Positions 1,323 through 64,000 of a stretch of DNA of 64,000 bases are shown here, piece by piece; positions within the stretch are counted from its first letter, which is position 1; the number at the start of each line of letters is the position of its first letter. The notes beneath the pieces were generated by a model. It was not told the origin of the DNA and did no database searches. It worked only from the letters and a program-made list of their open reading frames with translations. The translations under genes were made by a program, and so were the position numbers. This stretch comes from Hansfordia pulvinata (Eukaryota; Ascomycota; Sordariomycetes; Xylariales): the NCBI GenBank assembly GCA_006538405.1, contig BJKQ01000008.1, positions 310,001 through 374,000 of the forward strand, read 5' to 3'.

Positions 1323-4300
1323 TTCTCTGCCCGTAATCGACCCTTTAAGATATTATTACTTATTCTTATTAATCTCGCGTAACGGTCGATATACACATTA
1401 ATAACGCTATATAAATTTATTACTTACCTATTTATTTCGGATCATTTAATCACCGATTAATTAAGTGATAAATAAAGTTAAGTTACCCCTTATTTCTTAT
1501 TAAAAAGTTAACTTTTATTATTATAAAAAATTAAAGGAAAAGTAATAAATAAGTACGCTTAACGATTAGACCTTAAACCTTAAATTAATAAGCGTTCCTT
1601 AAACTTACCTTCACGATCTTTAAACTTTAAAATCACGATAACGATCCTTAAAATAATAACGATAACGACTTTTAATTAAGCCCCTTTTAAAGCAGCCTTA
1701 AAAGAACCTCTTTAATAAGGGACACGGTGTTTATACTTAAAGTCCTTAATTTAACCGACCTTAAAAAAGCTTAAGTTTAATCTTTATTAAAAGTTAAAAT
1801 AATATTAAGGGCTAATATTAATAAGCTAATTATTAAGGCCTTAATAATATTAAAAGCTAAGTAAATAAAGGAGAGATCGCCCTTAAAGCCTTTAAAACAC
1901 GAAAACGACGTTAAGAATAAAGACGCGTCCGCCTTTATAACCGATAAAAAAAAGCTTATCTCCACGTTAATTAAAGCTAAATAAACCGAACGTTAAGACG
2001 AGGATTAAAGTATAAAAGATATTAAGGATAAGGATAAGCCACACCCTTAATAACAATATATATAACCTTTATCCTTATCTTTATTATAAAATATACCGAA
2101 TTCGTTAATAAAGAGAAACGGAGCCGGCCAATTTATTATTATAATAAAGAGCATAATCGATTTAAACGCACCCTTATTCACGATTATTCTTACGTTAAAA
2201 CTTAATAATATAAAATTTAATTCCCTTTTATAACTTAAAAATTAAAAGGATTATCTTAAGTAGCGTAAGGCTATAAAGCTGTATTTAAAAGCTGTTTAAG
2301 TGGCTATTTTTCTTTTTAATAGTTCTTATAATATCTTATTTAACTTAATACTTAAAAATTTAATAAATACTTAATTAAAAGGATAACGAGTAAGCGTTAT
2401 ACTTCTTAATTACACCCTTAAGGACTCCTTTAAGCATGCCACTCGCGATATTATAATTATTAAAGGCCTCTTTAATTAAGTTAAACGGGAATTTAACACG
2501 GATACCACCTTATTTATTTATAAGCTAGTTTAATAATAAAAAAAAATCTATATAAATAACTTTAAAAATACTAAGGAATTCGCCGACGAGATTTAAAGTA
2601 TTTAAGATAATTATATTAAAATCGACGTTAAACACATGTTACCGGTTAATTAATTAACCGCCCACTTTATTACTTAACTTAACTCTTACCTTTTTTACTT
2701 TATAAAGACATTTTAAGCTATTAATATTAAAGACCTTTTAAACCTCTTTAAAACGCTTTAATAAGCGGAAGGATATAAGTACTTCGTAAAGGACTCCGGT
2801 AAGGGATCGGTTACGTTAACGGTATTTTTAATTAAGTTATTAAAGAGGGGATGTAAGGTAAGCACGGTTAATAACGGTAAATAAGCCTGTGTAAAGTAAC
2901 GTACTTATTATAAAAAAACATATTATATAACCGAGACTTATTAAGATCTTTACCTTTATCTTTAAAGGGATAAAAAAGGGAAGAAAAAGGATTTAAAGAT
3001 TAAAATAAAATAATATTAAGCCTTATTAACTTATTAAGACTTAATTTAAGCCTTAATTCTTTATTTTTCCTTAATCATGCACCTTATCCTTATCTTACGT
3101 GCAATTTCGCTTATAATAATATATCCTTATTACCTTATATAATCGATTAAGCTTAAGTTATCGACTTTAAATATAAATAGCACGTTACACACTTATAAAA
3201 CCAGTTCTCTTATTTTAATAATATTAACCTTAAGTAAAACATAATAATTAAAGGTATCGGCAGTATTTAAGTTTTAATCCTTAATAAAAGGATAATTAAA
3301 AAAGATTATTAAATAATAATTAGCGTTCGCACGATCACCTTTATTAACGTTCTTTTTATATTATAAATCGGTGTAAATTTAATCTTTATTATTTAATTAT
3401 TAAATTAAAACGTAATGCTTAACCTTATTAAATCGGCTTATTTATTAAAATTAAAGTCCGGTATTATCGTTAAAGTAATAAAGTATAATAATTTATTTAT
3501 TTTAACCACGGTATAAGCCGTTAACACCGCTTTTATAATATACGTTATCGACCTTAAGTATAAACTTTAATATAAGCGGATAAGCCACTTTAATAAGTAA
3601 AACCTCTTTAAACTTAAATATATTATATAAGGTATATAAGACGTTAAAGCTTATTACACTTATAACCCTTATATTAAAAGAAGAATAAGAGAGGGACCTT
3701 ATTAATATAAGCTTTTTAAAGGCTATTAAGTAAGAGATGTGGTCTTTTTTAATATATGTGGCCCTTTCTATTATATAAGCATAAATAATGAACGTTATTA
3801 GCTTACTTATATTAACGCTTATAGCCGGTATAGCTTTATAATCCTTATAGTTTTTAAAGACTCGGTATAAGTATAAGCATAAATTAAGGCCTTTATTAAG
3901 GTATTAAAGAAATGTGTAATATTAAATTATAAATGTTAAATGATCCATACCGATTAAGGGGGAGAATTCGTTTTTAACACGGGAAAGTAATAGTGTTTTA
4001 AAGAAGGAATCCACCTTTAAACCTCCTTAATTAAGCAACACGAAGTTAATAGCTTAATAAAAGTCTTTAATATTAATATTCGGGATAAACTTCTTTTAAT
4101 TATAATTAATAATAAATTTAAGCTATAACATTAACCACACCTTCTCCTCGCCTCTTATTACCTTTAAAACCGAAGTCCTTAAGTAAGCATCGATATCACA
4201 CCTTTTAAACTAATATATAAATATTAATTAAATATTAATTATATTAAAACCCTTAAAACGAAAGTATAATATCTTCTCTTTTTCACGAAATAAAGGAAAC

Positions 4301-57723: not shown

Positions 57724-59172
57724 GATGTGCGCAACATGGAAACGTTTGCTGCATTACCTGGGAGGTAGCATATCGCAGATTGCCGAAAGCATCCGAATAA
57801 AAATAGCTCATCTGAGCCTTCAAGTAGCTGCTCGTGACGCAGGGCGACACAGCAGTTCCGACTGACACGCCCCGCAATGCTCCTACTCAATTCGGGTCCG
57901 AAAATCAAAAAACACACGCGGTAGTTGAGAATTCCCCTTTCGAGCCTCCGGCGTGGTGTCAGCATCTAATAGTGGTGCCCAGCAACGAACCTTGCATTTA
58001 CGGAGATGAGCAGCAGCGCAGTCTGGGGCTTACAGAGGCGTGAAGCCGCGCAAAGGGGGTACCCAGAGTCGTCCGACAGCGACAGATTCTGTGCGTCTAC
58101 CATCCGTTCTCAAGGACCGGGGGGGGGGGGGGGGCGGGAGCGGTCTTTGTGCGAACGTTAGGGACAGAACCCCTCCCCCCCCCCCCAAGCCAGCCGCCGT
58201 CCGAAGCACGCCCGAAGGCGGAGTCTGTGCATCTGCGATTAAGCATTCATGAAGACAGCGGTCCCCTTGCTCGGAGAGACGTCAGGCAGAGGCCTCCCGA
58301 AGCCGGGACGAGGGTCCATGCGGGCCTCGGTTGGTCCGAAAGGGGGGGGGGGGGGGGGGGTTAGAAGGGGGAGTCATGCGCGGCGATGCCACTTACAGCA
58401 ATTGACGAGTATGATGTCGCGTCGGAGAGTGGAAAGAACCAACGTCGCGAGATTCGCTACTAAGTTATTACTGACGCGCCGGTTTCCAGAGCCGCCCGTC
58501 CCGATCCCTGTCTAGCGCTGCCCGGCGATCGACGGGGGGGCACGCCGAGATCCGGCATTGCTTACGGATATAGGTAGTATGGGCTACTTTGACTGATTGT
58601 CTATGCAGGTAGTGTCGTAGCTGTCGAGTTGGTCGCTGGATAGCACACTTGATGGCATGGAGTCATGCCACGGACGGAGAGTCGGACAAAGGGTGCTGGA
58701 GAATGCGAATTGAGGATTCCCGAAATCAGAGTAGGTAGTGCATGCTGGAAACTGGAAGAGGGCGTGGACCCAACCAGCCTGCGGCGTTGGCTACCTACCT
58801 ACCTGGGCCAGTGAAGCGATGCCGCCGAGGATTGGAACGCAGCAGGATACAGCCGCCGTCCTGCCCTCGAACACGGACTCGCAAGAGGCATCCGGGGGAC
58901 ACCCTGCCTTCTCCGCATTCCGCTAATGCGGCTTGATCCATGGCCGCGAGAGGTCGATCTGGGGTACCGGGGTTAGCGACGAGAACCCACAGCCCGGGAT
59001 GGACAGACTCGAGAGTGCCGAAGCCCATGCAAGAAGGCTTGGATGTCGACTGTAACATAGCTTGCCTGGAATTCCCTTTAAATTTTCCTTTCCCATGTTA
59101 CATTCTCTCCCGGACTGCGATGTGTTTCAACCTGATTCATCTCCCAACCGGACAACTAGAATATCACCTACC
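57724..59172. other. Intergenic region with long G/C homopolymers
   Basis: About 1.4 kb. The middle (58,119-58,360) is dominated by poly-G and poly-C runs. Further right there is TACCTACCTACC at 58,792-58,803. The right end is the leader of the YAT permease (CTACCATGG start context). No gene supported. Confidence 0.5.
58119..58360. repeat. Three G/C homopolymers within 240 bp (G16, C12, G19)
   Basis: G16 at 58119-58134, C12 at 58175-58186 and G19 at 58342-58360. Run lengths this long are hard to sequence and may be inexact. They could form G-quadruplexes on one strand or the other. Confidence 0.85.
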
Positions 59173-61069
59173 ATGGCCGACACGGAGGCACCCGGCTCAG
59201 GGCGGCAATCCCCCGTCCAAGTCGACAAGACGAAGAGCCTGGATGCGGGCTCCGAGAACCCGTCGCTGAACATCGAGGAGTCGAGGCAGATCGCACAGTC
59301 CGGCAATTCAGACGGCATCCGACGGCATCTGAGCAACCGCCAGGTGCAGCTGGTGTGCCTGGGAGCCTCGATTGGGACGGCAATCTTCGTCAGCATCGGG
59401 GGCGCGCTGCACGCCTCGGGTCCCGGCCACCTGCTGCTGGCCTTCCTGGTGCAGAGCTGCGTGGTGTGCGCCATCAACAACTGCATCGCCGAGATGTCGG
59501 TGTACATGCCGGTTAGCGGGGGGTTCATCCGCCTGGCGGGCCGGTGGGTGGATGACGCCCTGGGCGCCGTCGCGGGCTGGAACTTCTTCATCTTCCAGGT
59601 CATTCTGATCCCGTTCGAGATAACCGCTCTGACGCTGGTGCTGTCGTACTGGTCGGACAACATACCGGTGTGGGCCATCTGCGTGGCCTGCATTGCACTG
59701 TACACGTGAGTAAAAAAAAAACGAATCAAAAAATAAAACCCCATCAGGCTTTGCTCACTGTATCCCATCAAGACACCAGAAGAGCTGACACGCGAGCGGG
59801 AGGGAATAGGGTACTCAACGCCTTTGCGGTCAAGGTGTACGGCGAGGCCGAGTTCATCCTGTCTTCGGGCAAAGCCCTGTTGCTGTTCATGCTGCTCGCC
59901 TTCACGTTTGTGACCATGGCGGGCGGCAACCCGCAACACCACGCATTTGGCTTCCAGTACTGGGCGACGCCCGGCGCGTTTCGGGAGCACCTCAGCAGTG
60001 GGGGGTTGGGCCAGTGGGAGGGCTTTCTCGCTGCTCTGTGGTACACGGGTGAGTCGGCCGTCATCAGCTGGCGAAGCTTGGGACTGATCAGCCTGTGTTA
60101 TATATAGGCTTCAGCGTGATGGGCCCCGAGTACGTCTCCATCGTGGCGGCAGAGACCAAGGCGCCGCGGACGTACATCAAGACGGCCTTCAAGGCCGTCT
60201 ACTGGCGGGTGTTTGTCTTCTTCTGCGGCAGCGCGCTGGCGGTGGGCATCCTGGTGCCGTGGGACGACCCGACGCTGGTGGAGGTGTACGAGGGCGACGG
60301 GGGCGGCGCGGGCAGCGCGGCGGCGTCGCCGTACATCATCGCGATGAGCAACATGGGCGTGTCGGTGCTGCCGCACGTGGTCACGGCGCTGCTGTGCACG
60401 ACCATCTTCTCGGCGGGCAACACGTACACGTACTGCGCGACGCGGACGCTGTACGGGCTGGCGCTCGAGGGGCGGGCGCCGGCCGTCTTCGGGCGGCTGT
60501 CGGGCCGGGGCCTGCCGTCGTGGGCGCTGGCGGCGGTGATGCTGTTCCCGCTGCTGTCGCTGCTGCAGCTGTCGAGCGGGACGGCGCAGGTGCTCGACTG
60601 GCTGGTCAACCTGTGCACGGCGACGATCGGCATCACCTTCTTCATCATCTCGCTGACGTACCTGCGCTTCCACCGGGCGGCGCGCGCGCAAGGGTTCGAC
60701 CGCTCCAGGCTGCCGTACACGGGCTGGCTGCAGCCGGGCTGCGCGTGGCTGGGGCTGGTGTGGATGCTGGGCCTCGAGACGTGCTACGGCTACGCGTCGC
60801 TCAAGGCGGACCCTTTCGACGGCGCCGCCTTTGCGACGTCGTACCTGCTGGTCATCGCGGAGCCCGTCTTGTTCCTGGCGTGGAAGTGGGCCAAGGGGAC
60901 GAGGTTCGTGCGCGCCGCGGACGTCGACCTGGTCTGGGAGGCGCCGCTGCTCGCGGCGTACGAGGAGGCGCTCGAGGAGGAGCCTGTCGGCTTCTGGCGA
61001 GAGGTCGGGCAGTACTTCCACGTCGTGGCCCGGGGATCGTCGCGGGGGAACTCGGAGAATGTGTGTTAG
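59173..61069 (+). CDS. Amino-acid permease of the yeast amino acid transporter (YAT/APC) family, 577 aa
   Basis: Proton-coupled uptake of amino acids across the plasma membrane. The start is the ATG at 59173 in a good context (ACCATGG); a longer frame begins at 59062 but lacks family similarity. Exons are 59173-59705, 59810-60048 and 60108-61069, with introns of 104 and 59 bp (branches GCTGAC and ACTGAT); the joined frame is 578 codons with stop. Family blocks in order: RHLSNRQVQLVCLGASIGTA (first membrane segment), EMSVYMPVSGGFIRLAGRWV, AGWNFFIFQVILIPFEITAL, VKVYGEAEF, GPEYVSIVAAETKAPRTYIK, then SAGNTYTYCATRTLYGLALE and the C-tail element PVGFWREV. Twelve membrane segments are expected. An insert of Gly-rich sequence (GDGGGAGSAAA) sits in an outside loop. 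Substrate range cannot be told. No frameshift. Confidence 0.92.
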
Positions 61070-62218: not shown

Positions 62219-62252
<34 letters not shown>

Positions 62253-62267: not shown

Positions 62268-64000
62268 TTAGTGGGAGCAGACGGCCCTGGCCACGTGGCC
62301 CGTCTCACCCTCCTTGGGGGCGTCAAAGTACTGGCGGCGCTGCTGGTGCTTCTGGTAGGAGGGGAACATGACGCAGAAGAACTCGGACCAGCCGCCCAGG
62401 CGGCAGCGGACGAGCTCGTACTTCTCCGTGTCGCGCACGGCGGCCTCGTAGGTCGCGAGGTCGGCGCACGTCAGCGTGACGTAGTTGCCGCCCGTCTCCC
62501 CCTCGGCGAATCGGCGGACGAAGCGCTGCAGGTCCTCGAGCGGGAAGTCCTCGGGGATGTTCATGTCGACGGGCGCCGCGCTGGACACGCCGATCTCGAC
62601 GGCCGAGTTCTTGTAGGTGCGCAGGGCGTCGTAGATGTTGCGGTGGGACGGCGCCGCCGCCAGGTCCTGCGGGGCCTGCACCGGCGAGCAGTCCGACGCG
62701 ATGGGCTCGCCGCTCCGGCGCCCGTCGGCCGACGCCCCGATCCCTTCGCCCGCGCCCACGTAGCCCTCGAACGTGCCCACGCCCGGCTCGATCATCCACT
62801 CGAACCCGGGCCCGTAGGCGTCGTAGACGCGCTGCAAGCCCTCCTTGAGGAAGGGCGCCGGCTGGCGGATGGCGTCGACCGACATGCGGACGCAGTTCTC
62901 GATGAGCCAGACGCCCAGGTCGTTGAGCTCGTCGCCGCCGTCGCCGCTGCCCCACTTGGGCAGCGCCAGCGCCTCCTGCCGCAGCTCCTGGTACCGCACC
63001 GCCTTCTCGGCCGCGTTGGCCTCGCCCAGCGTGCTGTCCTGGAACGGCTCGCACATGTTGCCGCCCCAGTCGCAGAGCAGGCACATGACCAGCTCCTTGA
63101 GGGTGCAGCGCGCCGTCGCCGGGTCGAAGACGAGCTTCTTGATCGCGTACAGCGAGCTGATGGTGTTGGCGACGCCGACAAACATTTGGGAGACTTTTGG
63201 GGAGTTGATGTCAGTAACGTGTCAAGGAAAGGAGTGGAGATAAAAAGAAAAAAGAGAGAGAGAACGAAAGGGGAGGAAGAAAAAGGGGAGAAAAAATAAG
63301 GGGGAAAAAAAAAAAAGGGGGGGGGGGGGGGGGTATAATGAGAAAAGACATACTAATGTGGAATTTGGCGCCGCCGTTGGTCAGGTCGCGGCCGGACTCG
63401 GTGCAGCCGCCCAGCAGGGGCGACAGCAGGGGGGAGGGGCAGACCTTGGCCAGGTTGCCGTAGTCGTCAAACATCTGCTTGTAGCACTTGAGGACCAGCC
63501 ACCAGACGTGCTCGAGGAAGATCTCCTTGAGGTGTTCAAAGTCGCGGATGTCCTTGGCCAGCGGGGAGCGGAAGGTCTGCTTGAGGCCGTTGAGGTAGAT
63601 GGGGCCCGCGGCGCGCATGGTGGCGCCCTGGTTGAGGGCCTGCTCGAGGGCGGGCATCAGGTCGACGTTGTTGAAGACGAACTCGCTGGCGCCGCCCAGC
63701 AGGGGCTCGTAGCAGCCGTCGGCGGCGTAGTCGCGCGAGGCGGCGCGGGTGACGCTCTCGCCGGAGCGGAACAGGCCCTCGCACAGCTTGTCGTCGTTGT
63801 AGATGGTGGGCTGGGCGCCGCCGGCCAGGATGGACTTGGCGGCCTCGTCGACGTACTTCTGGTCGATGCCGCGGAAGACGCGCAGGGACAGGGAGGGGGC
63901 GTTGACGGGGATGCGGCGGGCGGCCTTGAGGCACAGCATGGTGACGGCGTTGCAGCCGTCCTCGGGGACCGGCGAGTCGGTGGCCTTGTAGCCGCCGACG
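62268..64000 (-). CDS. Glycyl radical enzyme (pyruvate formate-lyase / dehydratase superfamily), 3' part; N-terminal part outside window
   Basis: The frame is open from the right edge. Two exons are inferred: 64000-63354 and 63193-62268, with a 160-bp intron (GTATGT...AAAG, branch ACTGAC) containing a long C run on the coding strand. About 520 residues are visible; the family is usually 750-900, so roughly 250-350 are missing. The thiyl cysteine motif is DGCYEPLLGG (Cys codon at 63714-63712), with the family's GC-E pattern. Downstream are NGGAKFHISQMFVGVANTIS, SLYAIKKLVF and SADGRRSGEPIASDCSPVQA, which matches the S-GR-GEP--D--SP block of glycerol/diol-dehydratase-like members. Near the end YELVRCRLGGWSEFFCV matches the glycyl-radical loop (usually RV-GYS); the radical glycine is one of the two Gly at 62396-62391. 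About 46 residues follow the loop, somewhat more than in bacterial members. The reaction is undetermined: a lyase or dehydratase acting on a small polar molecule is likely. An activating radical-SAM enzyme would be needed and is not in the window. Confidence 0.85.

Follow-up and report, generated by a model that had tools for sequence, protein, structure and literature searches.

Glycyl radical enzymes (GREs) carry out textbook oxygen-sensitive chemistry that depends on a radical-SAM activase. Pyruvate formate-lyase (PFL) proper has a Cys-Cys active site.

A fusion of a DyP-type B peroxidase with PFL (hereafter DyP-GRE) has already been published for Chaetomium, where its significance was called elusive (Zamocky et al. 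2016, PMC5041501). According to the available part of that paper, the fusion gene is induced 3-fold by H2O2 and 18.5-fold by peroxyacetic acid, a putative PFL activase is reported, and a proteobacterial origin of the fusion is inferred. Our literature search, by titles and abstract beginnings and with few subscription papers covered, returned no further paper on the DyP-GRE fusion, and the available part of PMC4420034 does not mention it.

Here we describe a gene of this kind from Hansfordia pulvinata. Its 3' part lies in a 64,000-nucleotide stretch of DNA (the window), which corresponds to C8:310001-374000 of an assembly of 46.8 Mb in 63 contigs. The gene resembles the Chaetomium fusion, as presented in the available text (PMC5041501), in its N-terminal DyP domain, its C-terminal PFL-like domain, its ascomycete host and its proposed proteobacterial origin. 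In contrast to that fusion, the window copy has one intron and a one-base frame change in the assembly, and it evolves faster.

Structure of the gene in the window

The GRE gene that an earlier note on this DNA had reported for 62268-64000 is confirmed. On the minus strand, this region is the 3' end of a fungal gene, interrupted by an intron, that encodes a PFL-like GRE (Table 1). In profile searches PF02901 matches the last exon with E 1.3e-13 to 2e-13 and the upstream exon with E 4.9e-35 for the in-window part and E 2.6e-74 when extended. The GCYE and RLGGWSEFF motifs are found where the note had placed them. Splicing out the intron yields a stop-free product that can be aligned with homologues, which, together with the splice sites, bears out the earlier description of a typical fungal intron.

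Table 1. Features of the DyP-GRE gene within the window (window coordinates)
Feature	Position	Strand	Evidence or detail
Stop codon of the DyP-GRE gene	62268-62270	minus	
Last exon: C-terminal part of the GRE barrel, RLGGWSEFF loop, stop codon	62268..63193	minus	PF02901 and spliced translation
Glycyl loop codons Gly-Gly-Trp	62388..62396	minus	Gly before Trp at 62391-62393
Intron, 160 nt	63194..63353	minus	GTATGT donor, TACTGAC branch-like site, AAAAG acceptor
Upstream exon, visible part: GRE barrel with GCYE	63354..64000, runs past the window end	minus	PF02901
GCYE codons Cys-Tyr-Glu	63706..63714	minus	Cys 63712-63714, Glu 63706-63708

The glycine before the tryptophan of the loop is presumably the radical site, by analogy. 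The glycyl loop was recognised by eye and by alignment, despite the failure of PF01228 (Gly_radical) to match in profile searches of the H. pulvinata genome and of the exon pieces of the window gene. The same model is also without a match in 17 of 24 bacterial genomes that carry DyP-GRE. Because the loop is present by alignment, PF01228 seems too narrow for the DyP-GRE branch.

Bacterial contamination, against which the earlier note had already argued from codon use, is rejected: the gene has an intron, its third-position G+C is host-like (0.98, against 0.94 for the adjacent transporter ORF), and it sits on a 2.83-Mb contig. True PFL is rejected as well, since the window gene has GCYE. The best solved relatives by sequence are glycerol dehydratase, choline lyase and diol dehydratase, in agreement with the earlier placement closer to the dehydratase and C-N/C-O lyase branch than to PFL. 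Compared with the glycerol/propanediol dehydratase and choline lyase GREs, DyP-GREs are at about 20% identity, occupy their own long branch, have a DyP partner and lack an adjacent activase.

The surroundings of the gene include an amino-acid/polyamine transporter-like neighbour on the plus strand (59056-61069), with at least one intron by eye. The intron of the GRE gene contains long C, T and other homopolymer runs, where assemblies often err, and a (CT)n run at 62225-62250, just beyond the stop codon, is likewise an assembly-error-prone kind of place.

The gene beyond the window

The window covers about 42% of the DyP-GRE gene (about 523 of some 1,244 codons). The earlier note had proposed following the sequence past 64000. 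In C8:372000-381999, the GRE frame continues to about C8:374890, and a second minus-strand frame, which overlaps it at an offset of one base, extends to a start codon at C8:376164. Its product begins MSLNSKSNPH, is 424 aa long and carries a DyP-type heme peroxidase domain. The two domains are arranged head to tail on the minus strand with a one-base shift between them in this assembly, whereas homologues are continuous.

The DyP piece matches PF20628 above cut-off (E 1.6e-17) and TIGR01413 with E 4.8e-27 but with 95.1 bits, below the cut-off of 100.5. The distal Asp, the proximal His and the distal Arg are all at aligned positions, and the last Gly of GxxDG is a His. By profile and heme-site residues, the domain of the window copy is predicted to be a DyP-type peroxidase. 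Unlike the DyP-type peroxidases YfeX and KpDyP, the DyP of DyP-GRE is fused or genetically linked to a GRE, and its motif reads RYxD[GH] or, in clade B, RFSEN.

A low-complexity insertion rich in K/N/D/E was observed within the DyP domain of the window copy, about 1.3-1.4 kb beyond the window end (offset 3300-3420 in the C8 region from 372000). It is absent from aligned homologues; expansion of a microsatellite or an intron that went unrecognised may account for it.

These features raise the question of whether the copy is decaying, in which case H. pulvinata would make the DyP part at most. We regard this reading, which concerns this copy only, as possible though somewhat doubtful. The frame change separates the two domains, and the end branch of the window copy (0.58) is the longest in the fungal clade, with other fungal rows at 0.37 or less. 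Of the 115 columns that are invariant in the other 37 rows, 7 are altered in the window copy, two of them immediately preceding the Gly pair, compared with no more than 3 in any other fungal row and no more than 5 in any row besides it. The K/N/D/E-rich insertion adds to this side. However, the 820 GRE codons and the 424 DyP codons are free of internal stops; in the GRE part, unconstrained change along its branch would, by a rough estimate, have produced about 20. Both domains also keep their catalytic residues, third-position G+C is 0.955-0.988, and the one-base change is possibly an assembly error. A recent loss of function and an error in the assembly would both fit these data. Loss within a homopolymer run, considered for the frame change at the junction, was dropped after comparison with homologues.

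A conserved fusion family and its catalytic residues

Used as a query, the spliced window GRE retrieved 331 proteins. PF20628 and PF02901 are both present in 111 of the best 120 listed (hand count), and the fused proteins among these best 120 of 331 are mostly 1,165-1,235 aa long. The matches listed name Xylariales, Sordariales, Fusarium and other Hypocreales, lichen fungi and Lindgomyces among the fungi, and Collimonas, Janthinobacterium, Massilia, Chromobacterium and Andreprevotia among the bacteria. By its domain content, the window gene belongs to a DyP-GRE fusion family that is conserved in ascomycetes and bacteria.

We examined an alignment of 56 fused relatives, consisting of 29 of the 31 fused bacterial loci (without L026 and L068, which are interrupted by stops) and 27 listed fungal proteins. 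The GRE Cys and Glu, the Gly-Gly-Trp, the DyP proximal His and three Trp residues are invariant in all 56. The DyP distal Asp/Glu is present in 54 and the distal Arg in 54. Fused proteins from a Scalindua MAG (L021) and a Gemmatimonadota MAG (L023) have lost the DyP distal acid and Arg and keep all GRE residues. These two loci constitute a natural test of the need for the DyP domain; Scalindua, the host of L021, is presumably an anaerobe.

The predicted model of a homologue from Daldinia (P0007) aligns over 348-1182, with the GRE fold complete. A GRE lacking its N-terminal domain, which the earlier note had named as an argument against a working enzyme, is rejected for the family by this model. 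For the window copy, the N-terminal part of the GRE lies outside the window, beside the frame change.

Among the bacteria that carry DyP-GRE are Massilia, Janthinobacterium, Collimonas, Sphingomonas and two cyanobacteria, all of which we take to be aerobic or oxygenic. With such carriers and with the GRE paired with a heme peroxidase, the low-oxygen use that the earlier note had envisaged is not supported.

Phylogeny

We built an unrooted tree of 81 GRE sequences, comprising 58 of 66 loci, 22 of the 120 listed proteins and the window GRE; loci L026, L046, L050, L052, L053, L062, L068 and L074 are outside it. The tree was made by a quick method with SH-aLRT support only, and branches among the classical GREs are long. 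The DyP-associated GREs fall into a single 62-row clade (SH-aLRT 100), well apart from the classical GREs collected in the same scan. Within it, 20 fungal rows, including the window copy, group together (98) next to a set of 10 proteobacterial rows (98), with a joint support of 100, and the window copy groups with five Xylariales rows (99). The topology is as expected from the bacterial ancestry suggested earlier, and it fits a single transfer of DyP-GRE from bacteria to ascomycetes.

In the same tree, the DyP-GREs of Paracidovorax anthurii (L011) and Pseudomonas cichorii (L017) are close sisters, with end branches of 0.021 and 0.034. Because they are close sisters though their hosts belong to different classes, a recent transfer between bacteria is suggested.

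An unfused sister clade and the bacterial neighbourhoods

A sister clade contains unfused GREs of about 850 aa (14 loci, L040-L053; 10 tree rows). At 12 of the 14 loci the GRE is followed immediately downstream by a separate DyP gene. In the two exceptions, the contig stops within the GRE (L046) or the locus is a fragment that shows no DyP (L052). The gene order GRE-DyP is the reverse of that in the fusion; therefore, the association exists in two arrangements. Pattern searches found the FxDG[IV]xN motif in all 11 unfused DyPs examined and HxxK in 10 of them, and the glycyl loop is kept in all 11 unfused proteins examined. As far as our literature search goes, a DyP encoded as a separate gene right behind the GRE is new.

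PLD-like genes lie nearby at 9 loci, including the fused L023 and L030. Trypsin-NucA fusions occur at L043 and L032 and a trypsin-PLD fusion at L041. Locus L045 has a subtilase, an amidase and a glyoxalase-NucA protein, and L040 and L051 have glyoxalase-type proteins. A mixed blast cluster in which glyoxalase, NucA and other neighbours were joined was excluded from the counts. A KAP NTPase and a cytidine deaminase were also observed near bacterial DyP-GRE genes (within the set L040-L051, L023, L030 and L032). Nearby proteins with an N-terminal DFDDN-type stretch, HAD-like by eye, gave no Pfam match.

The peptidase, NucA and PLD neighbours are a possible link to conflict systems. The trypsin-NucA proteins near DyP-GRE resemble the core of 'System 3' (trypsin and NucA endonuclease) as given in the available part of its description (Kaur et al. 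2020, PMC7159879); in contrast, the words peroxidase, glycyl, formate and DyP have no occurrence in the text of PMC7159879. PADLOC matched neither the fused protein P0052 nor the L040 GRE, the L040 DyP or the L045 glyoxalase-NucA protein, and it gave weak matches only (best E 1.5e-16) for the PLD- and trypsin-type neighbours.

Search for an activase

We searched 45 genomes with DyP-GRE (24 plus 21), several of them MAGs of unstated completeness, and two Clostridia as controls. An activase was scored where TIGR02494, a model possibly blind to very divergent activases, matched over its cut-off or with E <1e-30. On this basis G002 (E 9.9e-37) and G003 (E 4.7e-37), which are under the cut-off yet beside a classical GRE, were counted as positive. 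Weaker matches in 13 genomes were scored as absent, the best being 3.9e-12 (G045), 8.7e-11 (G021, through stops) and 1.8e-10 (G043). The 45 include two genomes in which the GRE is only fragmentary (L062 in G046 and L052 in G045).

TIGR02494 activases were found in 6 of the 45 genomes (5 of 24 and 1 of 21), namely G002, G003, G010, G015, G016 and G031, and these are precisely the genomes that also hold a classical GRE. The activase adjoins the classical GRE in the first five, and in G031 one of two does. The other 39 genomes, all without a classical GRE, had no TIGR02494 match over the cut-off (best E 3.9e-12). The chance probability of this split (6/6 versus 0/39) is near 1.2e-7, calculated by hand with kinship ignored. 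Both Clostridia controls contain many TIGR02494 activases. The confinement of the classical GRE activase to genomes with a classical GRE is, as far as our literature search goes, new.

The neighbourhoods show a similar distribution. Among the loci scanned, some of which are short, 12 of the 20 classical GRE loci (every non-Lokiarchaea one) have an ORF with an activase-like CxxxCxxC motif within 10 kb, compared with only 1 of the 31 fused loci (L038, 8 kb off). The L021 neighbourhood contains a MiaB-like ORF, and short, chance-like matches were seen at L015, L016 and L019.

A PflX-like query found nothing better than E 3.8e-7 in 24 DyP-GRE genomes, compared with 1e-51 or better in the two Clostridia controls. 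Full typing was carried out for one bacterium, Collimonas. Its 11 radical-SAM matches at E <= 1e-6 comprise MoaA, MiaB, LipA, RimO, HemN, BioB, HemW, a PA0069-type protein, RlmN and two below-cut-off proteins, one SPASM-type and one B12-type, with no GRE activase among the 11. The SPASM protein (L118) was rejected as a shared activase, its best match in the other 19 genomes being 39% over 190 residues. These sequence comparisons speak against a dedicated PFL activase in bacteria with DyP-GRE, whereas the work on Chaetomium, in its available part, assumes one (PMC5041501).

A six-frame search of H. pulvinata, in which exons may be missed, gave seven radical-SAM matches: MoaA, BioB, LipA, a viperin-family protein, TYW1, Elp3 and one protein that we take to be PflX-like (L010). 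The viperin-family protein (L007, C4:1023556-1024023) matches NF038283 over cut-off, with 243.5 bits. The earlier note had held that the lack of an activase in the genome would argue against a working enzyme. The fungus does have one candidate, the PflX-like protein, although its absence would not discriminate for the window GRE because 39 of 45 bacterial carriers also lack a recognisable activase. The PflX-like family is listed in Colletotrichum, Trichoderma, Apiospora, Pestalotiopsis, Claviceps and others (120 of 7,989 listed), and these five genera are not named among the best 120 of 331 fusion matches, both listings also containing rows without a name. For this reason the PflX-like protein is a poor candidate for a dedicated partner of the fusion, though it could still serve.

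These data bear on a conventional mechanism, in which a radical-SAM activase (in fungi the PflX-like L010) would set the glycyl radical at low oxygen and the DyP would only remove peroxide, protecting the enzyme. The PflX-like protein of H. pulvinata is in keeping with this, and many listed fungal PflX homologues carry the source name pyruvate formate lyase activating enzyme. A putative PFL activase is also reported in the available text on Chaetomium (PMC5041501), and a peroxidase beside an oxygen-sensitive radical enzyme would be a plausible guard. We nevertheless consider this mechanism unlikely, given that PflX is found in none of the 24 bacterial genomes searched, that the five genera given above for PflX are not named among the best 120 fusion proteins, and that a recognisable activase is missing in 39 of 45 bacterial genomes.

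Proposed mechanism

Alongside the family membership, the conserved active sites of both domains, the recurrent pairing, the bacterial ancestry and the lack of a recognisable activase in bacteria without a classical GRE, all read from sequence, the explanation that we tentatively favour is a horizontally acquired DyP-GRE gene whose DyP heme, with peroxide, makes a glycyl or thiyl radical. The heme would react with peroxide to form Compound I as the oxidising equivalent. A relay from Compound I, perhaps via the Trp residues that are invariant in the DyP domain and linker, would then produce a glycyl or thiyl radical in the GRE barrel. Such a peroxide-driven start could enable the enzyme to begin in air. 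DyP-GRE would thus be the GRE counterpart of class I ribonucleotide reductase, in which an O2-dependent radical generator is paired with a PFL/RNR-fold barrel. That generator is a di-metal protein, not heme as in DyP, and we do not claim homology. Judging from the GCYE Cys/Glu pair and from the nearest folds, the enzyme probably cleaves a small substrate in the manner of a dehydratase or lyase.

That H2O2 and peroxyacetic acid induce the Chaetomium gene, as given in the available text, fits a DyP-driven mechanism (PMC5041501). Against it stand L021 and L023, which lack the distal DyP residues yet have intact GRE residues, and the fungal PflX-like protein, which could be an activase. In addition, peroxidases can equally be mere protectors.

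It is improbable that the barrel works without a glycyl radical, with the DyP oxidising the barrel Cys or a bound substrate directly or with the barrel as a binding scaffold for the peroxidase: the missing activase in 39 of 45 bacterial genomes and the lack of PF01228 matches to the fused proteins in most of those genomes would agree with this, but the invariance of Cys, Glu and Gly-Gly-Trp in all 56 fused proteins, with the loop also in 11 unfused ones, is difficult to account for unless radical chemistry takes place at the Cys as well as at the loop.

Generalised to the family, the DyP-driven radical would make DyP-GREs a class of glycyl/thiyl radical enzymes powered by peroxide or oxygen, with a heme peroxidase taking the place of the SAM activase. 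The class would be spread over many bacterial phyla, including aerobic ones, partly beside trypsin/NucA/PLD conflict genes, and would have passed once to ascomycetes. We offer this wider proposal with greater reserve.

The conserved peroxidase-paired GRE branch, with its presumably aerobic carriers, cyanobacteria even among them, and with 39 of 45 bacterial genomes lacking a recognisable activase, makes a peroxide start of GRE chemistry directly testable. If true, it would provide a role for the ascomycete gene that was left unexplained in 2016.
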